A stretch of 64,000 nucleotides of DNA. It comes from Fimbriimonadaceae bacterium. GTDB lineage: Bacteria; Armatimonadota; Fimbriimonadia; Fimbriimonadales; Fimbriimonadaceae. The stretch spans positions 1,591,564 to 1,655,563 of the forward strand of contig CP075366.1 of NCBI GenBank assembly GCA_019454145.1, given 5' to 3'. The notes under the pieces are model-generated. The model did no database searches and was not told the DNA's origin. It worked only from the letters and a program-made list of their open reading frames with translations. The position numbers and the translations under genes are program-made. Position 1 is the first letter of the stretch, and each line of letters opens with the position of its first letter. Below, piece after piece: positions 19,369 through 38,941 of this stretch.

Positions 19369-19452
19369 GATTTGTAACTCACTCAATTCATCAAGAAAAT
19401 CAATCTGATGTTCTTGCAATAACTGACAAGACGCAAGAACCGTTCCGGGGTC

Positions 19453-20415: not shown

Positions 20416-20428
20416 GAGACTTTAATTC

Positions 20429-21468: not shown

Positions 21469-21492
21469 TCCAACTACTCCTTGTTTCAACCA

Positions 21493-22404
21493 CTACTGGG
21501 AAACATTCCTGCTCAGTTCCCTATTGTGTACGAGTATTGTGCCAAATAGCACGTCAAACCCAATTCCAGCGTTGCCGTAACCAAGAATCATGCGGCAAAG
21601 GTCGGAGCAAGCGGTTGCTACTGATGGGTCGTAGGGTCGCACTGAGAGCCACCAGCGTGCGACTAATTCTGCGATATACACTTGAGATTCACGAATTGAA
21701 AGAACTGTTGATTTAGATAACTCTTCGGCTATTTTTCTGGTTTCTTCCGAAAATTTTACGGCAGCCATGGGAGGGGCCTCAAGGCTCAATTGTAGCAAAT
21801 CCCACAGCTTTGTATGGCAATCCACGTTCTCACGAATAAACTGTAGCTCGCCCTTGTTCTTGCCCCAGGCGATTTCTAATGGAAGTTGAGGTGGATGTTC
21901 CTCCCATTGTTCAAATGGGGCGGCAACGCAAAGGCATCGTGATCTAATAGTAGGAAGCACTCGACCAAGATTTGTGGTCGTCAAAACCGTTCTCGCATAG
22001 CCTGGTAGTTCCTCCAATGTTTTAAGGAATGCGTTGGAAGCTTCACTATTCAACCGCTCGGCGTGCTCAATCCAAACCGCTTTTTTCTGCATCATTAATG
22101 GGCGAGTGCGAAAGTATTCGACGACTGGAATCACAGGATTTTCGTCTTCATCAGGAGATTTCACTCGCACAATGTTTTTGAGGACGATTTGGTTACCTGC
22201 TCCCGATGAAACAATTTTCTGAGCATCAACTTCGCGTGCAAAATCGATTCCAGCAACGGTATCGCCCTTCAGCCAAAAAGAAACAAGCTGATGGGCAGCT
22301 TCGGCTAACTGTTCAGAATCGCTGCCGTAGACTAAAATCGCTTGCGGATCGGCTGTTCCGGATGCAATGCGTTGAATCAGCCTCGAAATGCCAAGACCTT
22401 CCAT
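21493..22404 (-). CDS. holB: DNA polymerase III delta-prime subunit-like protein
   Basis: A 303-residue protein of the clamp-loader delta-prime type. The most diagnostic segment is the AAA+ core WIEHAERLNSEASNAFLKTLEELP, followed by TVLTTTNLGRVLPTIRSRC with the arginine-finger SRC motif. The N-terminal P-loop is degraded (VYGSDSEQLAEAAH), as expected for the non-ATP-binding delta-prime. The C-terminal helical domain is weakly conserved. It helps load the beta sliding clamp at forks. Its start overlaps the stop of the c-di-AMP receptor gene by one base; the same two genes are near-neighbours in Bacillus subtilis (yaaQ/darA and holB). Confidence 0.88.
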   Translation of the reverse strand: MEGLGISRLIQRIASGTADPQAILVYGSDSEQLAEAAHQLVSFWLKGDTVAGIDFAREVDAQKIVSSGAGNQIVLKNIVRVKSPDEDENPVIPVVEYFRTRPLMMQKKAVWIEHAERLNSEASNAFLKTLEELPGYARTVLTTTNLGRVLPTIRSRCLCVAAPFEQWEEHPPQLPLEIAWGKNKGELQFIRENVDCHTKLWDLLQLSLEAPPMAAVKFSEETRKIAEELSKSTVLSIRESQVYIAELVARWWLSVRPYDPSVATACSDLCRMILGYGNAGIGFDVLFGTILVHNRELSRNVSQ

Positions 22405-22733
22405 TAGAACCGGCAGTACTGTTCGACATCCATAACAAACATTACTGCACCCCCAACAGGAACTCGGACTGGATTTGGCAATAAGCCGCCGGGTGCTCCC
22501 GAATCAAATGGGGCAACGTTGACCATTTGTTCTCGCTGTTCGCAATTTTCTTGAATGACCGACTTGAGTTTTTCGAGGTCATGTTCCTCCACCCCTACCA
22601 AAATCGTTGTATTGCCTTCGCGCAAAAATCCTCCCGATGACCCGATGATCGTGAATTTGAACCCAGATTTCACCATTTCGTCGGTTACCCGATTTCGATC
22701 ACGGTTGTGAACAACGCAAACAACAAGCTTCAT
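22404..22733 (-). CDS. darA: PII-like cyclic-di-AMP receptor homologue (DarA/PstA, YaaQ family)
   Basis: A 109-residue protein whose length and motifs match the DarA/PstA (DUF970) family: KLVVCVVHNRD at the start, FTIIGSSGGFLREGNTTILVG in the T-loop/B-loop region, and VGGAVMFVMDV at the end. In Bacillus and Listeria these trimeric PII-like proteins bind c-di-AMP; the downstream targets are unknown. It is the first gene of the run with holB and the sigma-E operon. No diadenylate cyclase gene is in this window, so binding is inferred from family only. Confidence 0.9.
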   Translation of the reverse strand: MKLVVCVVHNRDRNRVTDEMVKSGFKFTIIGSSGGFLREGNTTILVGVEEHDLEKLKSVIQENCEQREQMVNVAPFDSGAPGGLLPNPVRVPVGGAVMFVMDVEQYCRF

Positions 22734-22786
22734 TTATAACTCTATTGTAGCTAAGGTCGCAAGTTATCCCAAGTTCCAAAAAATAA

Positions 22787-22818
22787 TCATCCTCCCGTTG
22801 GATTTAACGGGAGGATGA
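22787..22818 (-). terminator. Intrinsic terminator of the first DUF1559 gene
   Basis: A perfect 13-bp stem (22787-22799 with 22806-22818) and six-base loop. On the minus strand TTATTTTTT follows. It lies 22 bases below the stop of the pseudopilin gene. Confidence 0.9.
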
Positions 22819-22839
22819 AAGAGCTAAATTGAGCTTAGC

Positions 22840-23721
22840 TTATGGACAGGCTTGAACGCCGGCCTTCCATGGATCCCACATGGAATCGGTTGGCTTATCG
22901 CGGAGATCCCACATAACGGTCTTGTAGTTAGAAGCCTTTGCGTGGCTATCTGCGTGGATGACAACCAAAGCGCCGCTGTATCGTTGCTCGATCGCCTTTT
23001 CAGCTTCTGCATCGGTTGGGTAAACGGTTGCAGAACCATTCCAGTTGAACAGGTAGCTGTTACCCAAGTTCTTCCAGTACTGAGGTCGATCGGTTGAGGT
23101 ACATGCAGTGGTCCAAGAAGTTCGACCAGTGAACAACCGAAGGTTGCCATTAAACCGAGGCAGAGCGTTGTAATAGCTGGCATCTACGAGAACCAAGGTG
23201 TTTGCCACGTTTTCGATAGAAGTATGTGACATTGAGTTGCCTCCATCAGATTCGAAAATGACAGTGTTGGAAGCAAGTGAGTTTTGACCGCCGTAGCTTC
23301 GGAAAGCTGGTTCTTGACCTGCTCCGGATGGATCGTAGTTCACCCAAGATTTAGGGTTACCTGGTGATCTGAAGATCGCATCGTTCTTTACATAAGGGCG
23401 AAGAATTTGGTTCCAGAACGTTCGGGTTCGAGCGTTTGCGCCCCACAGAGTGGTACATGCGGCAGGATAACCAGATCCACCAGCTGCAACACACTTGGTG
23501 TAGTCTGGGTTAGGCTCGGTGGTTCGGTAAAGGTACAGAACGTCGTCGTAGTCTGCAAGGTAGATGTGCTGTGCGGTACCAACTTGCTTAGCTTGAGCAA
23601 GACCTTGGGTTTTCTTAGCGGCTTGCTTTGCTTGAGCAAAAACAGGGAACAAGATGGCTGCCAAAATGGCAATGATCGCAATCACGACCAATAGTTCGAT
23701 GAGGGTAAATGCTTTTCGCAT
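22840..23721 (-). CDS. Type II secretion pseudopilin-like DUF1559 protein (copy 1)
   Basis: A 293-residue protein beginning with a type IV prepilin leader and helix: [17 protein letters not shown], followed by an alanine/phenylalanine-rich stretch. Cleavage before F5 by a prepilin peptidase is expected, with E10 of the mature-helix pattern present. The body is a DUF1559 C-terminal domain with an HADSHAKA segment, a variant of the H-x9-DG motif. Such proteins are abundant in planctomycetes and armatimonads; they are thought to form surface pseudopili or secretion filaments. Unlike the other two copies, no small lipoprotein gene follows; a terminator does. Confidence 0.9.
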
Positions 23722-23946
23722 GGGAATGGGTTTCCTTGCCTCCCCAAGCGGAGAAGCAACTCAAGCATCATTTTAATACTTTATGTTATGAAATGATTAA
23801 CAAAATGAGCCGAATTTTGTTGCTTCTATAACAACCTGGCATAATCCCCAGCAATTTGATCTAATTTCTATGTGGAAAATTGCAAGTTCAGTAGAAAAAA
23901 TTTACCGCAAACGGCCCACCTAGACACTAATTGTAATCCTCATTAC

Positions 23947-23985
23947 ACTTGTGGTCGAGTTCAACTCATGAACTCGACCACAAGT
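23947..23985. repeat. Long perfect hairpin after the 50-aa lipoprotein gene
   Basis: A perfect 17-bp stem (23947-23963 with 23969-23985) and five-base loop lies seven bases beyond the lipoprotein stop codon. No T run follows on the minus strand, so it may be a factor-independent stabiliser or an atypical terminator. Confidence 0.65.
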
Positions 23986-23991
23986 CATTAT

Positions 23992-24144
23992 CTATCGACC
24001 ATTCGGGTCAGGCACAGGATCATTAGGATCACGACCCGCGTTTTGATAAGATTGAACGTCATTGGAATCAACTTCGGTTTTTGCACAACCTGAGATGATT
24101 CCGAGAGCTAGCAATCCAAGGATCAGTAAGCTCAACTTATTCAT
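23992..24144 (-). CDS. Small lipoprotein coupled to DUF1559 copy 2
   Basis: A 50-residue lipoprotein. The signal peptide ends in the lipobox IISGC20, and the mature part is a 30-residue hydrophilic tail (AKTEVDSNDVQSYQNAG then DPNDPVPDPNGR). The ATG overlaps the stop of the upstream pseudopilin gene in a TAATG pattern, so translation is almost surely coupled. No homologue is recognised. Its tail is too short for a fold and could be a pilin-associated anchor, assembly factor or chaperone; that is inference from the arrangement only. Confidence 0.75.
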   Translation of the reverse strand: MNKLSLLILGLLALGIISGCAKTEVDSNDVQSYQNAGRDPNDPVPDPNGR

Positions 24145-25055
24145 TATTGACCCAATGCCCAAAGCGGGTAGTTGATGTCCAAATTTGGAACAACAGATCC
24201 GCCCGTGTAGAGCCATGCGTTTGTAGCGTTTCGGCAGTTTGAACCGAGGTTTGCTGGGAACGATGCTCCAGGGTTGTATTCGGCCAAGGTTGGGGTTTCC
24301 GCCAAGAACTTTTTCACTTGGTAGAACTTGGCGTGACCATCCGCGAAACCAAGAATTAATCCTCCAGCTGGTGCTGCTACGGGATCAACTTCTTCGGTAG
24401 TGCTGCATCCGCCTGCATTCTTGAGGAAGATTGCGCGCCAGTATTCGCGAACTGCCATGTTATAAGTGGTTTGATTATTAGGTTGACCACTTTGTACTGC
24501 GAGAGGCGCAGCATAGGTGTGTGGGAATTCGCCCAGTATCCATGCGCTTGCCGTATCTGGAATACCAGTTTGGCTACCACCGGTCCACGGTGTTGCGATA
24601 ATCGGGGCCGAGCCAACTGAAGCTCCAACTAAGCCAAGGTTCAATGCAAAAGAATTCAAAACTTGACCGTTTGTACTCCACTGAGTAGCATCCTTGATCC
24701 GAAGAGGATGATCAAATATTTGAACATTCTTGATGTAAGGCATTACGTACTTTTGCCAAGTTTGCCAAGTCATGCTGTGACCGAATCCTGTGCCGCTGGA
24801 ACAACGGAGCACACCGTCATTTAGCTTGGAGTTGATCGAACTGTTTAGTTCGCAACCAGAGCGGCGTGGATATTGATCGTCGTAGTCAGCAATGTAGAGG
24901 ATCAGCGAGGTGCTAATCTGCTTTTGGTTAGAGATCGCTTGAGTCTTTTTCGCAGCGACCTTAGCTTGCGCGAAGACGGGGAACAAGATTGCGGCGAGAA
25001 TAGCAATGATCGCAATTACGACCAAAAGCTCAATGAGGGTGAATGCTTTTCGCAT
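24144..25055 (-). CDS. Type II secretion pseudopilin-like DUF1559 protein (copy 2)
   Basis: A 303-residue protein with the same [17 protein letters not shown] leader and helix as copy 1 and an LILGFADGHAKFYQVKKFL segment carrying the DUF1559 H-x9-DG-like motif. Several cysteines in the body could form disulfides (GCELN, LRCSSG, GGCST, NCRNATN). It is exported and processed by a prepilin peptidase not seen in the window. Its stop codon is shared in a TAATG overlap with the small lipoprotein gene. Confidence 0.9.
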   Translation of the reverse strand: MRKAFTLIELLVVIAIIAILAAILFPVFAQAKVAAKKTQAISNQKQISTSLILYIADYDDQYPRRSGCELNSSINSKLNDGVLRCSSGTGFGHSMTWQTWQKYVMPYIKNVQIFDHPLRIKDATQWSTNGQVLNSFALNLGLVGASVGSAPIIATPWTGGSQTGIPDTASAWILGEFPHTYAAPLAVQSGQPNNQTTYNMAVREYWRAIFLKNAGGCSTTEEVDPVAAPAGGLILGFADGHAKFYQVKKFLAETPTLAEYNPGASFPANLGSNCRNATNAWLYTGGSVVPNLDINYPLWALGQ

Positions 25056-25211
25056 AAGAAATGATTCCCGTGCGCAAGTGGCTCACGCACTATTCCCCTT
25101 TAGTCTGCCATAACCCCCTTTCGGGTTTCATTAAGGACAGGTCTTGAACGGAAAAAGCTACGCATGCCATCCCCTAAATTAGGGCAAACGTCTCACAAAT
25201 CACGGTATACA

Positions 25212-25246
25212 GTGCCTTGCCAAATTAAGGCAAGGCACGTTTTTTA
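25212..25246 (+). terminator. Hairpin with plus-strand T run below the 78-aa lipoprotein gene
   Basis: A 10-bp stem (25212-25221 with 25229-25238), loop of seven bases, then GTTTTTTAG on the plus strand. The T run is on the plus strand, whereas the neighbouring genes are on the minus strand, so it may work on an unannotated plus-strand transcript from 25.06-25.21 kb or act bidirectionally. Confidence 0.6.
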
Positions 25247-25250
25247 GTTA

Positions 25251-25487
25251 TTAAACGCCGTCTTGCGCTCCCGGCTGACGGCGAGCTTCTTCAGCCGCTT
25301 TTTGTTGCTCCAGTTCCGCGCCACGTCCAGCTTTGATCATTGCGTCCTCATACGCCTCTTGAGACATTTCCTTACGGACTTGCTCACTTTCTTCGGTCGT
25401 AATTGTTGACTCATCATCGCATCCAACTATTACGCCTACTAAGCTAACTAGGAGCAACAAGCTAAGTAGTTTCGCAATCCGATTCAT
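25251..25487 (-). CDS. Small lipoprotein coupled to DUF1559 copy 3
   Basis: A 78-residue lipoprotein from the ATG at 25487. The signal peptide ends in the lipobox VIVGC23. The mature part is charged and probably helical (TEESEQVRKEMSQEAYEDAM then LEQQKAAEEARRQ), unlike the proline-rich tail of the other lipoprotein. It overlaps the upstream pseudopilin stop in the same TAATG way. Family unknown. The repeated pilin-then-lipoprotein order argues that the pairing matters. Confidence 0.75.
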   Translation of the reverse strand: MNRIAKLLSLLLLVSLVGVIVGCDDESTITTEESEQVRKEMSQEAYEDAMIKAGRGAELEQQKAAEEARRQPGAQDGV

Positions 25488-26446
25488 TAGCCACCAAATC
25501 CCCACATGGGATAGTCAATATTGATGTTGGGCTTGTTGCTGATGCCAACGTTTCCACTGATGCCTGAGAACGAACAGTTGAGGTTTGCGCCGAACGTTAC
25601 GGTCGCTCCGTATTCAGCAAGGGTCGGAGTTCGTGAGAGGAACTTTGCTGCTGGCATCGCTTTGGCACTGCTATCCGCAAATCCTAGAGTCACCATTCCG
25701 CTACTGGTTTTCCGGTTATCTGGCTCCACACCACTGGTGCCGTTGACGCAGTCTGCGGCAGTTCCCTTCATCAAGCGGTATCGCCAGAATTCTCGGTAAG
25801 CAACCGGATAGGTTTCCTGAACGTTGACAAATGGGTCAACCGTAGCGTGGGTGATGTGCGCGGTTCCGTGCGACCCGATTTCCATGAGCAGAAATGTTTC
25901 GGAAACACTTGGAATTGCGGTCATATTTCCGTTGATCCATGAGTTGCGGAATGCACCATTGCGATTCAGGCCACCAGGACCGTAAGTGTTAAGTGCTCCG
26001 GTGATTCCAGTATTCAAACCAAATTGGTCGATGATGTTGTTTTGAAGCCATGCAGCTTCGTTGCGCTGTCGTGTGGGCAAGAAGAAAATGCTGGTGTTCT
26101 TAACGTACGGCATGATCCACGCCTGCCAGGTGAAGTGATTTTTGCGATAAAGAAATCCGTTTGCCCCTGCCGATGAGGTGCATCCTGCACCGTTTGCATT
26201 GAACGGCACATTGGACAACGACTTGTTCATCAGTTCCGGTGTACAGTCGTCATTTCGGGGAAGGATGTCGTCGTAATCGGCGACATAGATGTGAAGTCCG
26301 GTTCCCACTTGTTTAATACTGCTGAGCGAAGCGGTTCGCTTAGCGGCGACTTTGGCCTGGGCGAAAACGGGGAACAGAATGGCGGCGAGGATGGCGATAA
26401 TGGCGATAACAACCAAAAGCTCGATCAAGGTGAATGCTTTTTTCAT
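25487..26446 (-). CDS. Type II secretion pseudopilin-like DUF1559 protein (copy 3)
   Basis: A 319-residue protein with leader [17 protein letters not shown] and the same first helix as the other two copies. The C-terminal DUF1559 motif is eroded: LGFADSSAKAMPAAKFL lacks the glycine-histidine seen in copy 2. A GGGAGG ribosome-binding site sits about nine bases before the ATG. The three genes are consecutive on the minus strand, each with its own upstream gap, so they may be transcribed separately. Their shared N-terminus is close to identical, the bodies only loosely similar. Confidence 0.9.
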   Translation of the reverse strand: MKKAFTLIELLVVIAIIAILAAILFPVFAQAKVAAKRTASLSSIKQVGTGLHIYVADYDDILPRNDDCTPELMNKSLSNVPFNANGAGCTSSAGANGFLYRKNHFTWQAWIMPYVKNTSIFFLPTRQRNEAAWLQNNIIDQFGLNTGITGALNTYGPGGLNRNGAFRNSWINGNMTAIPSVSETFLLMEIGSHGTAHITHATVDPFVNVQETYPVAYREFWRYRLMKGTAADCVNGTSGVEPDNRKTSSGMVTLGFADSSAKAMPAAKFLSRTPTLAEYGATVTFGANLNCSFSGISGNVGISNKPNINIDYPMWGFGG

Positions 26447-26532: not shown

Positions 26533-27714
26533 TTAAGAATAAAGTTGATAGCGACGAGTTTCGGCAATCAATTCCGCACCTGTTTCATCAACAAACTCCT
26601 TAATGACATCAACTGTGGCGCATTGATCAACTAGCTCTCTTACACCAGAACCGCCCGCTAGAATATCGATTGGGAGAAGTTCATATTCATATTCATAAGG
26701 CGGTGCTAGCCACTCAAATTTTTCTCCATAAAGTTGGCGGATTATGCTGAGGCAAGCAACAGTTGTTAGAACTGGGCGGAACGATTTTTGATCAGTCACG
26801 TGCATAAACGCACCTCCGCAGATTTCGCCTTTGAACTTTTGGAACGTCGGCAAAAAGTGGACTGGCCGCAAATAAACGCCGGGCAAGTTTAGGGCATTGA
26901 ATGCGTCGCAAAACTCCCAGCTATCAATATATGGTGCGCCAAAAAATTCGAATGGCCTAGTTGTTCCGCGACCTTCGCTGATCTTGGTTCCCTCGACTAA
27001 ACATTGACCAGGGTAAACCAAAGCTGTGTCTTCGGTTGGCATATTAGGTGAAGGCATTCCCCAACTGAGGCCAGTTTGCGAGAACATCATGGAACGCGAC
27101 CAGCCTTCCATTTCAACCACATTCACTTTGCACTGAGGAATATATTTGTCGCGAAAGTACCGACCGACTTCGCCGACTGTCATTCCGTGACGAACCGGCA
27201 ATGAGTAGAGGCCGACGAAGCTTTTGAACTTCTTGTCGTGCCCCGGCCCTTCGGTGAATTCTCCACCAATCGGGTTCGGGCGATCCAGAATCGTTACCGG
27301 GATGCCAAGTTCGGCGCTTGCTTCCATGCAATGAGCCAATGTCCAGATGAAAGTGTAGTAGCGCGCGCCAACATCTTGAACATCAAAAATGAGTTCTTCA
27401 ACACCTGTTAGCATCTCTGGTGATGGTTTACGATGCTCTCCGTAGAGTGAATAAAACGGTAGCCCTGTGCGAGAGTCGGTGTACCCCTCCCACTCAATCA
27501 TGTTGTCTTGCGTGTGTCCCCAGATTCCGTGCTGGGGACCAAAACAAGCTGTGATTTTTAGCTCACCTGACTTGTGGTGCGGCAGAATATGGTCAAGAAT
27601 GTGTTTCCGATCACGAGCAATGCTCGCTTGATGGCAAATGATTCCTATGGATTTTCCGGCAAACCGTGAAAATTGATCGCGAATACAGACATCAAGTCCG
27701 GTGAGCGTTTGCAT
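26533..27714 (-). CDS. DUF1343 protein, NamZ-like exo-beta-N-acetylmuramidase
   Basis: A 393-residue protein spanning the whole DUF1343 family. Recognisable segments are IGIICHQASI, PQHGIWG, LIFDVQDVGARYYTFIWTL, VTILDRPNPIGG, YSLPVRHGMTVGE and WGMPSPNMPT. B. subtilis NamZ of this family removes terminal MurNAc from peptidoglycan fragments. No signal peptide is visible, so it may act in the cytosol on imported muropeptides. It starts one base below the DUF1854 gene, which itself follows the ABC exporter by two bases, so these three form a tight operon. Confidence 0.9.
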   Translation of the reverse strand: MQTLTGLDVCIRDQFSRFAGKSIGIICHQASIARDRKHILDHILPHHKSGELKITACFGPQHGIWGHTQDNMIEWEGYTDSRTGLPFYSLYGEHRKPSPEMLTGVEELIFDVQDVGARYYTFIWTLAHCMEASAELGIPVTILDRPNPIGGEFTEGPGHDKKFKSFVGLYSLPVRHGMTVGEVGRYFRDKYIPQCKVNVVEMEGWSRSMMFSQTGLSWGMPSPNMPTEDTALVYPGQCLVEGTKISEGRGTTRPFEFFGAPYIDSWEFCDAFNALNLPGVYLRPVHFLPTFQKFKGEICGGAFMHVTDQKSFRPVLTTVACLSIIRQLYGEKFEWLAPPYEYEYELLPIDILAGGSGVRELVDQCATVDVIKEFVDETGAELIAETRRYQLYS

Positions 27715-27715
27715 C

Positions 27716-28183
27716 CTAAACCGTCACCGAAAGAATCTGCTTGCTCTTTTCATCCAGCCCGGAGATATTTGGAATCTCAAACCGATTGCCATCAACATCA
27801 ATAATCAGCAGGTAGTCAGGCGATAGCCACTGAGCGTTTTCTTGCAGGCTTTGGGTAATAAATTCCTTTTCGCCTCGGTCTGTAATCACATGCCAATACG
27901 TTGAGCCAAACTCGGTTTTTGTGCTGAGAACCTTGTGAACCACTCCATTCAAGTATCTCCGTTGCAACTCACCTTGCGCGACGCTCCAAACTTCAGGAGC
28001 GAGTTCAACAACCGGATCAGTGACCATAAAAATTTCCTTCCCTTTGCCATCAAGAAACGAAAGATATTTCCCTGGGTAAGTAAGGGGCGACGCCCAAGCC
28101 AAGACAACTTCGACATAACTCCTGTTGTCCATGGTCAATCTCAGTCGACCTTCCGGCGCATAAAATAAATGCATCTCTTTCAC
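27716..28183 (-). CDS. DUF1854 family protein
   Basis: A 155-residue protein matching DUF1854: it opens with FYAPEGRLRLTMDN, has the hallmark RYLNGVVHKVLSTKTEFGSTYWHVITDRGEKEFI, and ends with a small beta element (LLIIDVDGNRFEIP). In other bacteria DUF1854 genes sit directly after a large ABC transporter, as here, sometimes near cyanophycin synthesis genes; none of those is in this window. The function is unknown. It lies two bases after the ABC gene. Confidence 0.85.
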   Translation of the reverse strand: MKEMHLFYAPEGRLRLTMDNRSYVEVVLAWASPLTYPGKYLSFLDGKGKEIFMVTDPVVELAPEVWSVAQGELQRRYLNGVVHKVLSTKTEFGSTYWHVITDRGEKEFITQSLQENAQWLSPDYLLIIDVDGNRFEIPNISGLDEKSKQILSVTV

Positions 28184-28185
28184 CG

Positions 28186-30363
28186 TTAAACAGTCCCGAT
28201 TCCTATGATTTCGTTGACCGCACTCTGAGTTTGGACGAGGTCATAGAACCGCCCTTTCCGATCCATCAGTTCTTCGTGTGTTCCCTCTTCTACAACTTTG
28301 CCTCGATCTAAAACAAGCAACCGATCAGCATTCCGCAAGGTGGAAAGTCGGTGTGCAATCGCAAACGTCGTTCGACCAGCGATCAGGCGCTGGATTGCTT
28401 CCTGAATCTTGCGTTCGGTTTCCACATCCACGCTTGACGTCGCTTCGTCAAGAATCAAGATTTTTGGGTCGTGGAGAATCGCGCGGGCGATGGATATCCG
28501 TTGTTTTTCGCCGCCGCTCATCCGAGCGCCCCGTTCGCCGACCATCGTATCGTAACCGTCCGACTTCATCAAAACGAAGTCATGGGCGTTAGCGGCTTTT
28601 GCCGCTTCCATAACCTGCTCCATCGTCGCATCCGGGTTGCCATATTTGATGTTGTCTGCAATCGTTCCGTTGAACAAAAACGGTTCTTGAAGCACGATTC
28701 CGATTTGATTTCGATAGGATCGCAAGTCAAGTTCGCGGTAATCAATACCGTCAATCAAGATTTGACCTTGGTCGGGTTCGTAAAATCGGCTGACCAGGTT
28801 GATTGTTGTTGACTTCCCAGCCCCCGAATGACCAACGAGGCCGATCATTTCTCCTTCTTTAGCTGTGAAGCTCACTCCGTTAATAACTGGGTTTGACTTG
28901 TCGTAGCCAAAACGTACATCGCGGAATTCCACTTGACCTGTGATCTTTCGGACATCCCCGCCATCAAGAGCAGATTCAGGTTTAGTATCAAGAATTTCGA
29001 AAATCCGTTCCGCACCAGCCATTGCGCGGCTGAACCAGTTGTTCACGCTGGCAAACCATTGGAGCGGACCGTAAACCATGCCCAAGTAGGCGTGGATCAT
29101 ATAAAACTCGCCAAAAGTGAGTTGCCCTCGGTAGAGCATGGTTCCACCAACCGCCCAGTGAATGACCGTGCCGAGTGTAACGCAGAGAGTCATTCCGCCG
29201 AATGCCGTATGCCAAGTTTGGTCGGCTTTGATGTTGGCGTTGCGAAGTTCCTCGCTGCGAGTCTTGAACTTCGCGTACTCGTTATCTTCCTTGGCAAACG
29301 CTTTAACGACCCGAATTCCCATCAGGCTTTCGTTGAGATGCATATGCACACGCGCCATTTTTTGGCTTGTGCGGAAGAACAAGTTAGAGATCGGCTTCCA
29401 AACTTTGACGGAGATAAATGCGACGAGCGGAATGGGCGCGAGAATCATGATCGCCAGCAACCAATTGATGCTGAAGATCATCGCCGCTACCGCAACGAGC
29501 ATCATCCCGTTGATCACCAAAAACGGCAATCCATCAACAAGGAAGAACCAGACCCGATCAGTATCTTGGGTCACCCGACTGGCTATCGCTCCGACTGGCT
29601 TTTTGTCGAAGTAATTGAGGTTGAGAAATTCGATTGCGCGGTAAGTGGTGGTTCGCAGATCGCTGGCAAGGTTTGAACCGAGCCAAGTGTTCAACCGACC
29701 GCTCAGCACTTGTATGCTGGCAAGTCCAACCAGCACCAACGCCCACAAGCCGACCATCTGCATCAGCGGGCCGATTTCGCGATTGCCTGCGTTGAAAGCA
29801 TCTAGAATTTCGCCTTGAATTTTTGGTGGCAACAAAGCAAGCGCAGTTGAGCCAGTGGCGTAGACGCCGAGTAAGATCGCTTTCTTTTTATATGGCTTGA
29901 GGAACGAACCCAACCGAAGCATCGTTTTGCCACGATTGATACAGTTGGGGCAGACTCCATCTTTTTCCGGAAGCAATCGACCGCACTTATCACAACGGAT
30001 TTTTTGCTGAACTAGGTTGACGTTGAATTCTTCGCCTTTGGCGAGTTGCTGGATTCCCCGAGCAAGTTCACCGAACGCCTGCGCCCGAGTCAGGGAATAA
30101 GATGCGGCAACAATATCTTCGTGCGACTTTGTGCGAAGGACGAGCCTTCCGCCGCTTACCAGCGAGGCATTTTTGGCTTCTTCTAAATCGGCGATAGGAA
30201 CATTGAGAATAATCGCCCCGGCTTCATTAGTAACAGTAACCGCGGATTCCGATACTCGCACATGACGAATCCCGAACCGCCCATCTTCAGTAAGATCAGC
30301 CGCCAATTCTGCGAGAAAGCTTTCCCCCTCTCGCAATCCAGAGTCTGCATCGGCAGAAAGCAT
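28186..30363 (-). CDS. ABC exporter (permease-ATPase fusion) with N-terminal zinc-ribbon-like segment
   Basis: A 725-residue half-transporter. Residues 1-120 are a non-membrane region rich in beta strands. Next comes a four-cysteine zinc-ribbon-like motif with C124, C127, C138 and C141 (CDKCGRLL...CPNC). The six-helix type 1 exporter domain follows, then the ATPase domain with Walker A VGHSGAGKSTT, signature MSGGEKQRISIARAI and Walker B ILILDEAT. It should dimerise and export an unknown substrate. The extra N-terminal part is unusual for such exporters and is probably the piece that pairs with the DUF1854 protein encoded next. Confidence 0.93.
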   Translation of the reverse strand: MLSADADSGLREGESFLAELAADLTEDGRFGIRHVRVSESAVTVTNEAGAIILNVPIADLEEAKNASLVSGGRLVLRTKSHEDIVAASYSLTRAQAFGELARGIQQLAKGEEFNVNLVQQKIRCDKCGRLLPEKDGVCPNCINRGKTMLRLGSFLKPYKKKAILLGVYATGSTALALLPPKIQGEILDAFNAGNREIGPLMQMVGLWALVLVGLASIQVLSGRLNTWLGSNLASDLRTTTYRAIEFLNLNYFDKKPVGAIASRVTQDTDRVWFFLVDGLPFLVINGMMLVAVAAMIFSINWLLAIMILAPIPLVAFISVKVWKPISNLFFRTSQKMARVHMHLNESLMGIRVVKAFAKEDNEYAKFKTRSEELRNANIKADQTWHTAFGGMTLCVTLGTVIHWAVGGTMLYRGQLTFGEFYMIHAYLGMVYGPLQWFASVNNWFSRAMAGAERIFEILDTKPESALDGGDVRKITGQVEFRDVRFGYDKSNPVINGVSFTAKEGEMIGLVGHSGAGKSTTINLVSRFYEPDQGQILIDGIDYRELDLRSYRNQIGIVLQEPFLFNGTIADNIKYGNPDATMEQVMEAAKAANAHDFVLMKSDGYDTMVGERGARMSGGEKQRISIARAILHDPKILILDEATSSVDVETERKIQEAIQRLIAGRTTFAIAHRLSTLRNADRLLVLDRGKVVEEGTHEELMDRKGRFYDLVQTQSAVNEIIGIGTV

Positions 30364-30437: not shown

Positions 30438-32330
30438 TCACGTTTGAGCAATGAGTTTCATGAGCAATTCACGCACTTGCAGTTCGTTACCTTGCTCACA
30501 AGTTTGATCAAGCGAGTCAAGATCGGTTGTAAATTTTGTCCAATCTGACTGCGGGGCTGACTTCAACCGCAACAGCTTTGAGGTGCCGGTTGGCTCTAAA
30601 TCTTCGGATGACCAATTCAGCTCTTCGTGAAGTTTTTCACCGGGACGCGCACCGATAAACTGGACTTCGATATCTCGCCCGGCCCGCAATCCGTGCAGGT
30701 CAAGCATACGGTTCACAAGTTCCACAATCCGAACTGGCTCGCCCATATCAAGAATGTAAATGGTGCCTTGGTCGTTTTGCGCCCCAGCCTGAATCACTAA
30801 CTGCGCCGCTTCGGGGATTGTCATAAAATAGCGGGTCATGCGTTCATCTGTGATCGTAACTGGCCCCCCAGCGGCGATCTGTTTTTGCAAGATGGGAATT
30901 AAACTTCCCCGGCTACCGAGAACGTTCCCAAACCGTACGGAAGTGAATTGAGTTTCAGATTTGCCAGACAGTGAAAGCAAAATCATTTCCGCCGCGCGCT
31001 TGCTCGCACCCATGATATTGGTGGGATTCACAGCCTTATCGGTGCTGACCAAAATGAACTTCTTAACCCCATGAACGGCGGCTAACTCCGCGACATTTTT
31101 CGTTCCGAACACGTTATTTTTTACCGCCTGAATAGGCGCATTTTCCATAAAATGAACGTGCTTGTACGCTGCGGCATGGAATACCACCGACGGCTTCACT
31201 TTCTCCAACAAGCGATCGACTGCCGCCCGGTTTTGAACATCCAGAATGGTTGCGGTTACGTCCTCAAATCCAAGCAGTTGAAGGTCGTGCCTCGCTTCAA
31301 AAACACTATTTTCGCCCTTCCCTGCTAGGATGATTTCTTTTGGCTTAAGTGGGATCAGTTGACGAGCAATCTCGGAGCCAATAGAACCCCCGCCACCCGT
31401 GATTAGTACCGATTCGCCTTCAATATACGATCTAGCGTTTGTTATGTCAGTTTGGATCGGCGGTCGGTTCAGTAGCTGCTCCATCTGAATTGGCGCCATC
31501 TTCGGTTTTTGCTTTGCTGGTTGGCGAGCTACGATATCGTGGACTTTGGCGACTAACTTTTCATGGTCTGCCGCCCGTTGATCACCGGTACGAGAAGCTA
31601 ATCTGGAAGCACATTCCCGAACATTCATCACTTCCCGCCGAAGGTCAAAATCATTTGGCAGGTCACTGGCTTGCTGGGCTCTGCCTGTGAACGCTCGACT
31701 AAGAATCACTCCTTGACTACCGAGGCGTTCGTGTTCACCCAAAATGAGTTCGGCGGGTAGATCACCTTCACCGATTCGGGCAACACCACCGATTCCGAAA
31801 CTGACTTGAGCTTCCCTGCACAGTCGCGCAGCTTGGTCTAAAAATCCGCCCGCGAGGACTTCAAACAGAAAGTCCAGCCCCATCGCCAGGTGCAGATCGT
31901 TCAAACCAAAGTAGATTTCATCCAGCTCGCCGTTTTCTAAAATAGAGGACATTCTGGCAAGAGCTTGCGGAGTTTCGACAAGCCCAATCGTGATCGCGCG
32001 ACCATCTACACATTTTGTGAAGGCTTGAACTTCGCCGAAGGTAGTAAACATCGGGAGCATGATCAAATCGGCACCTGCGGCGATGACTTGCTCAATTTCC
32101 TGCTCAGAGTTCACCCCCCAGGGATTAACACGCACGAGCAATCCACCCGCCGGAACCACCTGGCGAACCGCGCGAACATCATCTAGCGTGTGGCGGCTGA
32201 TGACGGTATCTCTGTGTCCCTGCCGAGCCACCTTGCCATCTAGCTCTAAATCCACAAATATCCGATCAACTCCGGCTTGCACCGCCATTTGCGCCAAAGC
32301 TGGGTCAGGTGTGATGAGATACAGGTTCAT
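30438..32330 (-). CDS. Fused HpcH/HpaI-type aldolase and PglF/CapD-type UDP-sugar 4,6-dehydratase
   Basis: A 630-residue two-domain protein. Residues 1-225 resemble the HpcH/HpaI aldolase or citrate-lyase-beta TIM barrel (VDLELDGKVARQG, RVNPWG, GADLIMLPMF, IGLVETPQAL, FGLNDLHLAMG). A linker of about 75 residues follows. Residues 305-600 form an extended SDR of the PglF/WbpM/CapD family: Rossmann motif TGGGGSIGSE, AAAYKHVHFMENAP, VSTDKAVNPTNIMGASKR and ARPGEKLHEEL. Met440 and Lys444 replace the usual Tyr-x3-Lys, as expected for this family. The dehydratase acts on UDP-GlcNAc-like sugars for surface glycans. The fusion itself is rare; see findings. Confidence 0.88.
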   Translation of the reverse strand: MNLYLITPDPALAQMAVQAGVDRIFVDLELDGKVARQGHRDTVISRHTLDDVRAVRQVVPAGGLLVRVNPWGVNSEQEIEQVIAAGADLIMLPMFTTFGEVQAFTKCVDGRAITIGLVETPQALARMSSILENGELDEIYFGLNDLHLAMGLDFLFEVLAGGFLDQAARLCREAQVSFGIGGVARIGEGDLPAELILGEHERLGSQGVILSRAFTGRAQQASDLPNDFDLRREVMNVRECASRLASRTGDQRAADHEKLVAKVHDIVARQPAKQKPKMAPIQMEQLLNRPPIQTDITNARSYIEGESVLITGGGGSIGSEIARQLIPLKPKEIILAGKGENSVFEARHDLQLLGFEDVTATILDVQNRAAVDRLLEKVKPSVVFHAAAYKHVHFMENAPIQAVKNNVFGTKNVAELAAVHGVKKFILVSTDKAVNPTNIMGASKRAAEMILLSLSGKSETQFTSVRFGNVLGSRGSLIPILQKQIAAGGPVTITDERMTRYFMTIPEAAQLVIQAGAQNDQGTIYILDMGEPVRIVELVNRMLDLHGLRAGRDIEVQFIGARPGEKLHEELNWSSEDLEPTGTSKLLRLKSAPQSDWTKFTTDLDSLDQTCEQGNELQVRELLMKLIAQT

Positions 32331-32408
32331 TGCCGCTGGTTGCGAGTTTAACTGGTTGCTGGCCTAGACGGAGGCAAATAGTGCTCGGGTATCATGAATC
32401 TTCCGCGA

Positions 32409-32482
32409 GCGGGAGTAGCTTAGTGGTAAAGCTCCAGCCTTCCAAGCTGGCTATGCGAGTTCGATTCTCGTCTCCCGCTCCA
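32409..32482 (+). tRNA. tRNA-Gly (anticodon TCC)
   Basis: A cloverleaf is readable: acceptor GCGGGAG (32409-32415) pairs with CTCCCGC (32472-32478), the anticodon arm CCAGC-CTTCCAA-GCTGG gives anticodon TCC, and the T arm contains GTTCGATTC. The genomic CCA follows discriminator T (32480-32482). A TTTTTTAT stretch just after may act in termination. Confidence 0.97.
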
Positions 32483-34178: not shown

Positions 34179-34655
34179 CTAAACCAAAGCCGCGACGTGA
34201 CCAGACTTCACTAGCCCCGTGACCGTTTGCGGATAGCGAGCCAAAATATCGCCCAAAATCGCGCGAGCATCTGGCGTACCGTGGTGAGTGTGGGTATGAA
34301 TTTGCCCGAGCTTCGTTTCGATCATCTCTTTCACCGAACCCGGTTCTTTGAACGCCACCGCAACCCAATCGCCAGCTTCCGCGTCGCTGAGGTTGAGAGT
34401 ATGGTCGTTCATTTCCAGGAAGGCAACCATCCCGACAAACGCACACGCTTCGTTGCCGGATTTGAAGGCTCGCTTGTTGGCAAATCCAGTCAGAAATGAA
34501 GCCGCTTGCCCGACTAAATCTACGCTTGTGCCGTACCCATACTGGCAGAAAACGCCTTCTTCCAAAGTTGCGTAGTTCCACGGTTGAGGTTCTTTGGTGA
34601 GTTGCAGGTTCACCCACATCATGTCTTGAACCGTGAGGTACGAAAGCGTTGCCAT
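34179..34655 (-). CDS. Doc/Fic-like protein with degenerate active-site motif
   Basis: About 158 residues from the ATG at 34655. The segment YGYGTSVDLVGQAASFLTGFANKRAFKSGNEACAFVGMVAFLEMN aligns by eye with the Doc (death-on-curing) fold around its catalytic loop (only parts quoted: YGYGTSVDLVGQAASF, AFKSGNEACAF). Residues R62-A-F64-K-S-G67-N68-E-A70 occupy the place of H-P-F-x-D-G-N-K-R: the catalytic His and the Lys/Arg are lost while Phe, Gly and Asn remain. An AMPylase or kinase activity is therefore unlikely. It lies 64 bases after a ribbon-helix-helix gene in an operon with SPFH. Confidence 0.6.
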   Translation of the reverse strand: MATLSYLTVQDMMWVNLQLTKEPQPWNYATLEEGVFCQYGYGTSVDLVGQAASFLTGFANKRAFKSGNEACAFVGMVAFLEMNDHTLNLSDAEAGDWVAVAFKEPGSVKEMIETKLGQIHTHTHHGTPDARAILGDILARYPQTVTGLVKSGHVAALV

Positions 34656-34719
34656 AACTCTATTATGCTTCGCCGCGCCGCGATTTTCATCAGACCAACC
34701 TAGAGTAATGGTAACGAGA

Positions 34720-34899
34720 TCAATCGGAGCTAAGCTCCGAACCTTTGGGCTTGACCTCAATCCCTCGCTTACGAAGTCCCTCGCGGAGCAGAATCTCAAT
34801 CTGAGCATTCACACTCCGCAACTCAGCCGCCGCCAGGCGCTGCAGTTCATCATGCAGTTCTGGCGGCAGTCGGAGCGGGAACGATTTTTTGTCGGCCAC
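34720..34899 (-). CDS. Arc-type ribbon-helix-helix DNA-binding protein
   Basis: A 59-residue protein read from a GTG start, 13 bases after the SPFH stop. It begins MADKKSFPLRLPPELHDELQ: a basic beta strand followed by two helices (LRSVNAQIEILLREGLRKRG), the Arc/MetJ-type ribbon-helix-helix pattern also seen in HicB-like antitoxins. It would bind DNA as a dimer or higher oligomer through the antiparallel strand. Its position between SPFH and a Doc-like gene, together with the boxes at 35784-35813, suggests autoregulation. The ORF is below 60 codons and is easily overlooked. Confidence 0.85.
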   Translation of the reverse strand: MADKKSFPLRLPPELHDELQRLAAAELRSVNAQIEILLREGLRKRGIEVKPKGSELSSD

Positions 34900-34912
34900 G
34901 GGAATTACCTAC

Positions 34913-35773
34913 TTAATAGAGCGATCCTGTATTCACAACTGGCGTGGCTTGATGATCGCTACAGAGCACAACCATGAGATTGCTCACCATCGCCGCTTTG
35001 CGTTCTTCATCCAAGTTGATCATCTTTTCGCGATCCATTCGCTCAAGTGCTTGTTCGACCATTCCCACGGCCCCATCTACGATGAGTTGGCGGGCGGCGA
35101 TAACCGCAGCGGCTTGTTGTCGGCGGAGCATCGCACCAGCGATTTCCGAAGCGTAGGCGAGGTGGGCAATCCGTGCTTCCAGCACTTCAACGCCTGCGAT
35201 TTTCAGCTTAGATTGAAGTTCGTCTTTGATATGCTGACTGACTTCATCCGCGTTTTGGCGGAGGCTCACTTGGTCGTCGCTGGCATCGTATGGATAAGAA
35301 CCAGCGGAATGTCGTAGTGCGGTTTCGCTTTGCAGGTGGACGTAGCTGTCGTACATATCGACGTCGAAGCTTGCAGCGTATGTGTCAACCACCCGCCAAA
35401 CAACCACGATAGCGATTTCGATTGGGTTACCGCTTGCATCGTTGACCTTAAGCTTTTCCCCGTTGAAGGTACGAACGCGCAGGCTCATGTTTCGTTTGGA
35501 TTGGAACGGGTTTGTCCAGTGGAAGCCGTCTTTCTTAACCGTGCCGACGTATTTTCCGAAGAGGAGCAAGACTTTGCTTCCATTTGGTTCTACAACAAAG
35601 AATCCGGACAGCATGAGGATAAACGCCACCATGCAACCCAGGGCCATGATTGCCAGACCGCCGTCGTCGGTAGCTGCCCCTCGGATGAATCCGTACAGCA
35701 TGCCGGCTCCCAGTGCCAGCGTCACGAGCAACATAATCATGCCCGGCAAAACGCGAATCGATTTCTCGTTCAT
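34913..35773 (-). CDS. SPFH/Band 7 domain membrane protein
   Basis: About 286 residues. Two N-terminal membrane helices (VLPGMIMLLVTLALGAGML and LAIMALGCMVAFILMLSG) precede an SPFH domain that begins FFVVEPNGSKVLLLFGKYVGTV and includes GFHWTNPF and PIEIAIVVVWRVVDTYAA. A coiled-coil-prone, alanine-rich end follows (ASEIAGAMLRRQQAAAVIAARQ). SPFH proteins form membrane scaffolds (flotillin/stomatin-like). AAGGAA lies just before the ATG at 35773. It is first in the SPFH - RHH - Doc-like operon. Confidence 0.93.
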   Translation of the reverse strand: MNEKSIRVLPGMIMLLVTLALGAGMLYGFIRGAATDDGGLAIMALGCMVAFILMLSGFFVVEPNGSKVLLLFGKYVGTVKKDGFHWTNPFQSKRNMSLRVRTFNGEKLKVNDASGNPIEIAIVVVWRVVDTYAASFDVDMYDSYVHLQSETALRHSAGSYPYDASDDQVSLRQNADEVSQHIKDELQSKLKIAGVEVLEARIAHLAYASEIAGAMLRRQQAAAVIAARQLIVDGAVGMVEQALERMDREKMINLDEERKAAMVSNLMVVLCSDHQATPVVNTGSLY

Positions 35774-35783
35774 CAAATTTCCT

Positions 35784-35813
35784 TGATATCAATGTGATAT
35801 CACTATGATATTA
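35784..35813 (-). promoter_or_regulatory. Three 8-bp operator boxes upstream of the SPFH operon
   Basis: TGATATCA occurs at 35784-35791 and 35795-35802, and TGATATTA at 35806-35813, each starting exactly 11 bp after the last, about one helical turn. They span from the ribosome-binding site to a candidate -10 (TAATAT on the minus strand, at 35808-35813). Ribbon-helix-helix repressors typically bind such tandem short boxes, and the operon encodes one. Binding is inferred. Confidence 0.72.
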
Positions 35814-35903
35814 CGGCAGAATGAATATCGGGTTGCAGGGCGGTCCTACAAAATCTAGAATTTTTTCTTGGAATTGCTGATTGAACTTAGATATTCTGTT
35901 GGT

Positions 35904-36104
35904 GTGCCGAGTTCTAACCCCTGGATTTGTAAATGTGGCAAAGCTCACGATACGGAGATGTGTTTGATCTGCGGCGATTCAAGGCCAATCAACACTGGCG
36001 CTGAATCCGAACAACTTGCTAACCAGAAAGTAATGGGTTACGGGTGTGCGATAATTCCCGTTATCCTGATGATGACAATAGTCTTCACATCACTTTGGAA
36101 ATAA
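35904..36104 (+). CDS. Small zinc-ribbon-like protein with C-terminal membrane helix
   Basis: About 66 residues from a GTG at 35904; a TTG twelve codons earlier is less likely. Residues 8-23 form a CKCGKAHDTEMCLICG ribbon-like motif that could bind one zinc, and residues 45-62 a hydrophobic helix (GCAIIPVILMMTIVFTSL). It is divergent from the SPFH operon and shares its promoter region. No family is recognised. Weak but plausible gene. Confidence 0.5.
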   Translation: MPSSNPWICKCGKAHDTEMCLICGDSRPINTGAESEQLANQKVMGYGCAIIPVILMMTIVFTSLWK

Positions 36105-36105
36105 G

Positions 36106-36134
36106 GCTGGAGAGGTTGTAATTACCTCCCCAGC
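36106..36134. terminator. Hairpin between zinc-ribbon gene and SRPBCC gene
   Basis: Arms 36106-36116 and 36124-36134 pair over 11 bp with one A-C mismatch. A short T-containing tract follows on the plus strand. It lies between two convergent genes and may serve both. Confidence 0.55.
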
Positions 36135-36142
36135 TATTTCGA

Positions 36143-36724
36143 TCAGCCCTCTAATTTGGTTTTCATCGAATCAAAATATTCTGCCCAAGCACGGCGAACT
36201 CCATCCGATTCTTCCGGAGTCTGAATCCGTTGGTGCATCAGAGTAACCCCAGTTTTCCCTTTGCCTTTGTCGGCAAAAGCAACATCTACCTGAGTAGGAG
36301 TTTCAACTCCCGCAGTTTGCCAAGCGATCCGAGCATCCTTCCCGGGCCGGAGCCGTGTCCAGGTTCCTTGATTGCCACCCGAATCGGAATAGGCATCTCC
36401 TTCTTTCGCTGAACCGACAAACGCGTTATAGCAATCGTCCACACTCGCGGCGATCGTTTTAGTAGAGCAGATATTGAATCCTTCTGCCAGGCCATCCTTC
36501 TTCACGATGCCTTTGCTTTTTTCGTACTCCACCCAAATCACGGTCGGCCACCAGACGTCTTTCCCGCGGCCCGTAGCATCATATAATGCTTGAATCGCAT
36601 CCCGCCGGCCCTTGCCTGATTGTTCCTGGTCAATCCAAGCAAACCATTCGGTCAATGTTTTGCCAGTCGATGCTTTGCACGAGGCATCACTCACTTCATT
36701 ATCAGTTCTCAATTCAATTTTCAC
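36143..36724 (-). CDS. SRPBCC/START-fold protein with DUF4287-like N-terminus
   Basis: A 193-residue cytosolic protein. Residues 20-75 (TEWFAWIDQEQSGKGRRDAI, WWPTVIWVEYEKSKGI) resemble DUF4287-type small helical domains, and residues 85-190 resemble the SRPBCC ligand-binding fold (TIAASVDDCYNAFVGS, RLRPGKDARIAWQTAG, GVTLMHQRIQ, RRAWAEYFDSMKTKL). Such proteins bind hydrophobic ligands or act as Aha1-like cofactors; the ligand is unknown. The gene follows the GH76 gene by 74 bases on the same strand. Confidence 0.7.
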   Translation of the reverse strand: MKIELRTDNEVSDASCKASTGKTLTEWFAWIDQEQSGKGRRDAIQALYDATGRGKDVWWPTVIWVEYEKSKGIVKKDGLAEGFNICSTKTIAASVDDCYNAFVGSAKEGDAYSDSGGNQGTWTRLRPGKDARIAWQTAGVETPTQVDVAFADKGKGKTGVTLMHQRIQTPEESDGVRRAWAEYFDSMKTKLEG

Positions 36725-36798
36725 TGGTTCAATCCCGTACTAATACTGCTCACTCTACCAAATCAGTTGGTTGATCTAATCCTATACGAACAACACAA

Positions 36799-37866
36799 TC
36801 ATTTCTGTTGGGCTAAAACAAAACATGCTCGGGTGTATGATGCCTGGTCAATCAGAGGAATCTCTTGCTTCTTTTCTGGTGAGGTAGCGGCCCAATTTCC
36901 TGGATAGTGCCCTTGGGAAGAACGCATCTTTTGAAGAGTAATCAGAGGCTCGGACAGCTCGCCAAATTCAACTTTAGATTCAGGAATTAATTCTCCGGCA
37001 ATCAGCCACGACTCAATGAGAAGATGAGCAAACTGAGCGATATCTTTGTATAGCCCACCGACTAGCCACTTTGCCTTACTTGACTTAACCATCCCCAACG
37101 TATCTTCTCGGTATTGTGGGTTTTTCGTTTCTCGGTACAAATGGGCCGCAGTTCGAATCATGAGGGCCGTGTTGTAAGACCACTTCGTTTTTTCGATTTT
37201 GCCTTCTAAGTTGACGTTATCCCAGTAAAGTGAATCACTTGGATCTTGCAAATTCTTCTTCGTCCAAGCATAGAGCTCCGCCGCTTTATTGAGTAGCTTT
37301 TTGTCGCCAATCAACTCGTAAAACGCTAAACAAGCTGCCGCGCTTGGCCCGTTGCTACATGTGTTTTTAGACTTCTTATCCGATTCACGCCAGTAGATTC
37401 CGCCGCCGAGCTTTGAATCTTCGCCACTCAGAACATAAGCCAGAGCTTCTTGTGCCCATATGAGATACTTTTTGTCACCAAGTAGTTGATAAGTTTCGCA
37501 AAGGGCCATGACCATCCATGCGTTGTCGTCGTAGTACCGATCAACTGGTTTCGGCATGGGAAGAACATCGTATCCGGGAATCGGCCCGGCGGGATTCCAG
37601 TAAGTATGAGTTTGGTCGGCGTATTCCGCCAGCCAGGGCTTAAACTTTGGGTCAGCCTTTGCTCCCGCTACAAGTGCAGAAAGCATCACGCCGCACCCCC
37701 AATTAAATGAAACCTGCTTTGGCTTTGCGCCCGGAACTATGGATTCTCCGTAAAGTTTCTGCTCCGGCATGTAGTAGTCGCGCCGAATCATTTGCAAGGT
37801 TTCAGATCCCCATTCTTTGAATTGGTTCGATTGCATGAGAGCCGTGAGTATGACGAGCAAAGTCAC
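36799..37866 (-). CDS. Glycoside hydrolase family 76-like protein
   Basis: A 355-residue protein starting with a short signal peptide (MTLLVILTALMQS). The (alpha/alpha)6-barrel signs include VSFNWGCGVMLSAL, RYYDDNAWMVMAL with the paired aspartates typical of GH76 alpha-1,6-mannanase-like enzymes, GGGIYWRE, and KWSYNTALMIRTAAHLYRET. It would cleave alpha-mannan-like or related glycans outside the cytosol. It begins 13 bases after the aro gene stop, so they are probably co-transcribed although functionally unrelated. Confidence 0.85.
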   Translation of the reverse strand: MTLLVILTALMQSNQFKEWGSETLQMIRRDYYMPEQKLYGESIVPGAKPKQVSFNWGCGVMLSALVAGAKADPKFKPWLAEYADQTHTYWNPAGPIPGYDVLPMPKPVDRYYDDNAWMVMALCETYQLLGDKKYLIWAQEALAYVLSGEDSKLGGGIYWRESDKKSKNTCSNGPSAAACLAFYELIGDKKLLNKAAELYAWTKKNLQDPSDSLYWDNVNLEGKIEKTKWSYNTALMIRTAAHLYRETKNPQYREDTLGMVKSSKAKWLVGGLYKDIAQFAHLLIESWLIAGELIPESKVEFGELSEPLITLQKMRSSQGHYPGNWAATSPEKKQEIPLIDQASYTRACFVLAQQK

Positions 37867-37879
37867 GCTTTAAGTGTAT

Positions 37880-38941
37880 CTAAACTTTGCTCAATCGCTT
37901 CTGGTTTGCTCGCGCAAGTCCTTCTAGCATTGGCACCGTTTGAGCCAGATTCACGCAGCTATCGGTAATACTTTGTCCGTAAATCAGTTCACGACCTGGA
38001 ACGTAATCTTGACGGCCTTCTTCAAGATGGCTTTCGATCATTACGCCAAAAACTCGCCCACTTCCAGAAGAAACCTGTGAAATCAACGAATCGCAAACCC
38101 CTGGTTGTTTGCGATAGTCTTTGCCACTGTTTCCATGACTGCAATCCACCATCACACTAGGGCGCAACCCAGCGTGAGTGAGGCGTTCACAAGCTTCGGC
38201 GACGTGGAAAGTTTCAAAGTTTGGCCCGGACTGTCCACCGCGCAGAATGATGTGGCACGTATCATTACCCGTCGTTTCACTAAGTGCCGCGACCCCATCT
38301 TTCGTTGTGCTGGGGAACCAGTGGCTCCTCTCCGCCGATAGAACTGCATCAACAGCGGGCTGAATCCGGCCATCAGTTGCGTTTTTGAATCCTATCGGCA
38401 TACTCAAGCCACTTGCAAGTTCTCGGTGGGTTTGGCTTTCAACCGTTCTGGCACCAATGGCTCCCCAAGTTATGAAATCAGCGATGTGCTGGGGAACGGT
38501 TGTATCGAGAAATTCAGTCCCTGCCGGGATGCCAAGTTCGGCTAAATCTCGCAAAAATCCGCGCGCTACTCGTAAGCCGGTATTGATTTTATGGGTGCCA
38601 TCTAGCTCAGGATCGTTGATCAAACCTTTCCATCCGCCTACGGTACGCGGCTTTTCAAAGTAGGCGCGCATAATAATAAAAAGATCATTTAAATACTGAT
38701 CGTGGAGGTCTTTTAACTGAGCAGCATAGTCAAGACATGCGTCGGCAGCATGAATACTACATGGCCCGGCGACAACTAAAATTCGTTTATCCGCCCCTTT
38801 TACTATTGCCTCAACTTCTCGACGCCACTGCGCTATTCTTTGGCTTTGAATAACAGTTCGAGCAATTTCTTCAGTTAGGATGGCAGGCTGGATCAAAGGC
38901 CGCGTGTTTTTTATCCTAACGTCATCAATGGGAAGATCCAT
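37880..38941 (-). CDS. 3-deoxy-7-phosphoheptulonate synthase (class I, AroF/G/H type)
   Basis: A 353-residue DAHP synthase of class I alpha. Signature segments are VVAGPCSIH, IMRAYFEKPRTVGGWKGLINDP, GTEFLDTTVPQHIADFITWGAIGART, TCHIILRGGQSGPNF, VMVDCSHGNSGKDY and GVMIESHLEEGRQ. The Cys in GPCS, the His in CSH and the Glu in ESH coordinate the metal. It condenses phosphoenolpyruvate and erythrose 4-phosphate, the first step of aromatic amino acid synthesis. Feedback specificity (Phe, Tyr or Trp) cannot be told. No regulatory site was seen upstream. Confidence 0.96.
   Translation of the reverse strand: MDLPIDDVRIKNTRPLIQPAILTEEIARTVIQSQRIAQWRREVEAIVKGADKRILVVAGPCSIHAADACLDYAAQLKDLHDQYLNDLFIIMRAYFEKPRTVGGWKGLINDPELDGTHKINTGLRVARGFLRDLAELGIPAGTEFLDTTVPQHIADFITWGAIGARTVESQTHRELASGLSMPIGFKNATDGRIQPAVDAVLSAERSHWFPSTTKDGVAALSETTGNDTCHIILRGGQSGPNFETFHVAEACERLTHAGLRPSVMVDCSHGNSGKDYRKQPGVCDSLISQVSSGSGRVFGVMIESHLEEGRQDYVPGRELIYGQSITDSCVNLAQTVPMLEGLARANQKRLSKV

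Follow-up and report, generated by a model that had tools for sequence, protein, structure and literature searches.

An in-frame fusion of an HpcH/HpaI-type aldolase and a PglF-type sugar dehydratase in Fimbriimonadaceae, a likely product of the deletion of a surface-sugar cluster

The minus-strand gene at 30438..32330 of the window (the whole 64,000-nucleotide stretch of the Fimbriimonadaceae bacterium contig CP075366.1 analysed here) runs from an ATG start through 630 codons with zero internal stops and encodes an HpcH/HpaI-type barrel (aa 1-269) followed by a WbpM/PglF-type UDP-GlcNAc 4,6-dehydratase domain (aa ~276-630). We consider it likely that a deletion of ~16 kb removed a surface-sugar cluster and joined its two end genes in frame, and that the resulting chimera is bifunctional and has been selectively maintained. 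The initial annotation, made from the letters of this DNA, had described one 630-residue frame uniting an aldolase with a sugar dehydratase, and this description stands: the frame is intact, present as a single copy in the 2.76-Mb one-contig genome, and recurs in a second genome. Its domain assignments were also right, as a Pfam scan of the fusion places HpcH_HpaI (PF03328) at aa 3-152 with 41.7 bits (cut-off 25) and Polysacc_synt_2 (PF02719) at aa 308-589 with 355 bits. What was invisible to it is that a deletion left this fusion as its scar, and that the dehydratase in it has been separated from its membrane-anchor half.

The second occurrence of the fusion is in G154, a species of the same genus, where the corresponding protein (open frame 641) is 92% identical to that of the window over 630 residues, with zero gaps or indels. 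Since the join is identical in this second species, a chance frame, a frameshift artefact and the sequencing or assembly error that had been named as a possible refutation are all ruled out. The aldolase is present in 12 of the 291 genomes of the phylum Armatimonadota that were searched, and it is only in the window's genome and in G154 that it is fused to the dehydratase, which gives this domain order a taxon range of two genomes in 291. The combination is specific to this lineage, the component enzyme types being already known. No relatives were found among viral contigs, and literature searches turned up no work that describes this aldolase family or the fusion.

In the congeners, the two halves are encoded by separate genes. 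The aldolase is a protein of ~275 aa in G152, G153 and G157 and is frame-shifted in G151, where MurJ, the aldolase and the ABC gene are among the cluster genes split by frameshifts (L027, L064), possibly as a consequence of long-read indel errors. The dehydratase is a WbpM/PglF protein of 611-636 aa that includes the membrane-anchor half; across the family it was found in 43 of 70 good-quality genomes, nearly always as a protein in its own right, about 610-680 aa long. CoA_binding_3 occupies the N-terminal half of the unfused form (one protein scanned), and eight unfused dehydratases that were checked have 1-4 hydrophobic segments, compared with none in the fusion. In G152, G153 and G151, the aldolase and dehydratase genes share a strand and mark the opposite ends of one polysaccharide locus, so that the earlier remark that no pathway was known to pair these activities no longer applies. 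Between the end of the aldolase homology and the start of the catalytic PglF homology there are 15.9 kb in G152 and, computed from the listed coordinates, ~17.3 kb in G153 and 15.9 kb in G151. The genes in between, whose content differs somewhat among the three genomes and whose names are partly taken from an annotated Pseudohalocynthiibacter plasmid locus, comprise a sugar transferase, AsnB, Wzz, HisH, HisF, an N-acetyl-sugar amidotransferase, a DegT aminotransferase, a LegB-type SDR, a nucleotidyltransferase, NeuC, NeuB, a CMP-sugar synthetase and a Wza-like export gene, and make up a nonulosonic-acid polysaccharide cluster.

In the window, both flanks are collinear with those of the congeners and in the same orientation, and the fusion sits where the cluster would be. 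Directly downstream of it is an ABC exporter gene (28186..30363), which also directly follows the unfused PglF gene in congeners and comes after PglF in 14 of the 28 unfused family loci. The order that the congeners share beyond PglF, namely ABC exporter, DUF1854, NamZ, pilin-like genes (absent in G153) and a conserved block, is continued in the window by the synteny anchors DUF1854 (27716..28183) and NamZ (26533..27714), and then by pilin-like genes and the d24/d29/d28/d27/d26 block (17881..26446; order as in G152 and G151). On the aldolase side, c2, SPFH (c15) and DAHP synthase (c14) at 34179..38941 match the order seen in G151 and G152, where c2 is followed by SPFH and DAHP synthase; all these genes are on the minus strand. 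The ABC exporter, in the region 27716-30363, has an N-terminal extension, with the DUF1854 gene coming next, and both match cyanophycin-associated NCBIfam models below the cut-off. At 22840-26446, three paralogous proteins of ~300 aa with pilin-type N-terminal motifs stand in a row.

As flanking gene order is the same as in the congeners on both sides, the cluster appears to have been removed by two deletions. The larger would have begun within the final codons of the aldolase gene and ended shortly ahead of the catalytic domain in the dehydratase gene, joining the 3' end of the first gene in frame to the catalytic half of the second. The junction is a linker at aa 270-282 (31485..31523, minus strand), about where the native aldolase ends and within which PglF homology begins (~aa 276); the aldolase is short of about its last six residues, and the PglF homology starts about ten residues ahead of the catalytic domain. 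A second, upstream deletion would have taken out MurJ, a glycosyltransferase and one more gene, which separated the aldolase from tRNA-Gly(tcc) (32409..32482, plus strand); this tRNA gene is 3.8 kb away on the upstream side of the aldolase in G152 and 78 nt from the fusion start in the window. In phylogenetic trees both halves group with the congeners' genes, with support values of 100/98 and 99/97, which indicates that both are native and leaves a horizontal import of one half unsupported. Two other candidate ancestries were discarded: the cluster's own 327-aa SDR gene as the source of the dehydratase, as it is a LegB/GDP_Man_Dehyd-type SDR that is only ~25% identical, and a tandem gene in G062 as the pre-fusion state, as the neighbour there is a generic SDR epimerase and not of the PglF type.

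The aldolase half (31524..32330, minus strand) is orthologous to the congeners' separate gene and models as a barrel with a pLDDT of 94.7. Foldseek returns class II pyruvate aldolases as top matches and VIA-align places pyruvate kinase barrels nearest (Z about 21), both sets being PEP/pyruvate barrels. The full-length model of the fusion is weaker (pLDDT 72.9, pTM 0.57), with low confidence in the linker at 262-275. Glu119 (31974..31976) and Asp145 (31896..31898) align without gaps with the metal-binding positions of YfaU and HpaI and are invariant in 46 sequences, so that the metal site which the initial annotation wished to see checked is intact; Arg67 (32130..32132), likewise invariant in 46 family members, is a probable ligand of the pyruvate carboxylate by analogy with HpaI. 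The half thus shares with HpaI and YfaU, two class II pyruvate aldolases, the fold, the metal Glu/Asp pair and the likely pyruvate Arg, but it is only ~17% identical to them, has the family-specific motifs VDLExxGKxxRQ and GLND, and belongs to a family housed in polysaccharide clusters. The active-site His that follows the DxE motif in HpaI-type enzymes cannot be seen in the alignment, where the stretch reads VDLE and has no H; CitE and other HpcH/HpaI members seem to lack this His too. The N-terminal half would be an aldolase or lyase of the pyruvate type (class II) that depends on a metal and makes a precursor for surface glycans.

The dehydratase half (aa 283-630 and stop; 30438..31484, minus strand) matches crystallised PglF (WlaL, 5bju) over aa 281-615 with an E-value of 3e-71, the homology beginning at aa 281, near the start of that soluble construct. 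The catalytic motif TDKxnMx3K of the WbpM/PglF dehydratases (review, PMC8987622) is complete, with Thr430-Asp431-Lys432 at 31035..31043 and Met440-x3-Lys444 at 30999..31013, the latter being the stretch that had been read as an 'SMK' type of dehydratase. Like WbpM of Pseudomonas aeruginosa and PglF of Campylobacter jejuni, with which it shares this catalytic domain, the half is very probably a UDP-GlcNAc 4,6-dehydratase by analogy; unlike them, it is without the half that holds the membrane anchor and CoA_binding_3 and carries an aldolase domain instead. The C-terminal half of WbpM alone is a functional 4,6-dehydratase that needs no membrane anchor (review, PMC8987622), and the fusion protein would be soluble and bifunctional.

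Most of the pathway that would use the product of either half is gone. NeuB, NeuC, the CMP-sugar synthetase and the aminotransferase are absent at the window locus and present near the congeners' genes, and by family searches, on which the gene losses were judged, a real NeuB and WbuX are absent from both fusion-bearing genomes; one full-length DegT is left elsewhere in the window's genome. Still present, at 1.25 Mb, is an exosortase/EPS cluster that has two sugar transferases. The fusion is the sole close PglF-type gene of the genome, the next match having an E-value of 8e-4, and its C-terminal half would convert UDP-GlcNAc to UDP-4-keto-6-deoxy-GlcNAc for a surviving surface glycan, possibly that of the EPS cluster at 1.25 Mb.

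Purifying selection acts on both halves of the fusion in the two species, and dN/dS resembles that of the unfused genes. At a dS of ~0.5 between the window's species and G154, the aldolase half has a dN/dS of 0.099 and the dehydratase half one of 0.057, as against 0.141 (first 172 codons) and 0.043 for the unfused aldolase and dehydratase genes of G151 and G152. The two have nevertheless fared differently relative to their families. All 47 of the 47 aldolase positions that are conserved in ≥90% of the family are kept, and the aldolase stem branch is ordinary, whereas 12 of 110 conserved columns are changed in the dehydratase half (1-5 in unfused controls), among them P393H and H389Y, both within the conserved AHKHVPLME stretch, and its stem branch in the tree is 0.99 compared with 0.15-0.3 in relatives. 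Relative-rate tests of the dehydratase point the same way with some outgroups (45-52 versus 19-21 changes, p 0.0002 to 0.003 with G118) and not with others (no significance with G119). The long stem branch and the changed columns suggest that specificity or activity may have shifted, and we read the whole as a dehydratase that changed fast after losing its other half, with constraint then returning. The fusion is probably functional. The 78-nt leader that separates the fusion ATG from tRNA-Gly (32331..32408, minus strand) is identical at 78 of 78 positions in G154 despite the synonymous divergence of ~0.5, and neither an Rfam family nor a clear promoter accounts for this identity.

The aldolase belongs to a family that is widespread, uncharacterised and, to judge from its gene neighbourhoods, tied to polysaccharide assembly. 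A scan with one genome per species collected at least 444 relatives, and within 10 kb of the best 80 of these loci we find an initiating sugar transferase in 63, AsnB in 28, MurJ in 26 and PglF in 21. The family occurs in 20 of 391 sampled genomes from the class of a Mediterraneibacter MAG and in 7 of 369 from the class of Pseudoalteromonas rubra. In the congeners, Pseudomonas, Cohnella and others, separate aldolases of the same family, orthologous or otherwise, stand in MurJ-aldolase-sugar transferase-AsnB blocks; all their conserved residues are common to the window's aldolase, which differs in its fusion to the catalytic half of PglF and in its separation from the cluster. Fusions with other partners exist, namely with a sugar transferase (L097:9392-10825), a GT4 glycosyltransferase (L101:8693-10816), a sugar transferase and GT4 together (L145:2485-5151), and a PLP decarboxylase (L124:9929-12085). 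As in the window, an aldolase of this family is joined to another enzyme, but the partners are different and the aldolase is C-terminal in three of the four; no further PglF fusions of the family were seen. A 769-aa frame in G928 was rejected as an aldolase fusion because its first ~490 residues match nothing, have an odd composition and are probably spurious. The same polysaccharide cluster with an aldolase lies on plasmids of two Rhodobacterales genera (L018, L019), the proteins of which mostly share accessions, suggesting recent transfer.

How the two halves work together admits several readings. Only the dehydratase may matter, the aldolase having been captured as a soluble replacement N-terminus and serving today as no more than a carrier or oligomerisation domain. 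Of the two partners, PglF is indeed found more widely (in 48 of 85 family genomes) and still stands ahead of the ABC gene, and the N-terminal half of WbpM can be replaced by a His-tag (PMC8987622); the complete retention of the conserved aldolase positions, metal and Arg residues among them, and a dN/dS in this half that is no laxer than in the unfused gene nevertheless make such a passive role unlikely. Still less can be said for a relic on its way out, in which the deletion would have produced an open frame that has yet to decay. The loss of the pathway partners and the accelerated dehydratase stem would fit it, but a dN/dS of 0.06-0.10 at this synonymous distance, the lack of any indel in 630 codons and the unchanged leader render it highly improbable.

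The initial annotation had also speculated that the aldolase might extend or trim a keto-sugar, an idea for which co-location alone speaks. In its strict form, a channelled two-step catalyst would add a pyruvate-like unit to the 4-keto sugar of the neighbouring domain or remove one from it. The domains are physically linked, a PglF-type gene lies within 10 kb in the 21 loci counted above, and the two genes are directly adjacent in Pseudoalteromonas rubra (L120); however, the aldolase most often has the initiating sugar transferase as its neighbour, and elsewhere it is fused to that transferase, to a GT4 glycosyltransferase or to a PLP decarboxylase, and since the join is explained by deletion, linkage alone is weak evidence. 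We regard such a catalyst as very unlikely, and hold the halves to be probably tethered independent activities. A broader proposal, to which we give little credence, is that the family consists of undescribed metal-dependent class II aldolases that make or modify the first sugar or a substituent in bacterial polysaccharide assembly, and that here the enzyme and the dehydratase fused to it work jointly on a 4-keto sugar, yielding a new carbon-branched or extended sugar.

With the bifunctional deletion product as the preferred reading, the locus offers a well-resolved natural gene fusion by deletion, in which the two flanks, the two parent genes and the constraint that later acted on each half are all legible, and in which a membrane-anchored dehydratase has been turned into a predicted soluble fusion. 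The locus also points to a widespread aldolase family, uncharacterised and linked to polysaccharide assembly, for which the chimera may serve as a convenient soluble test protein.
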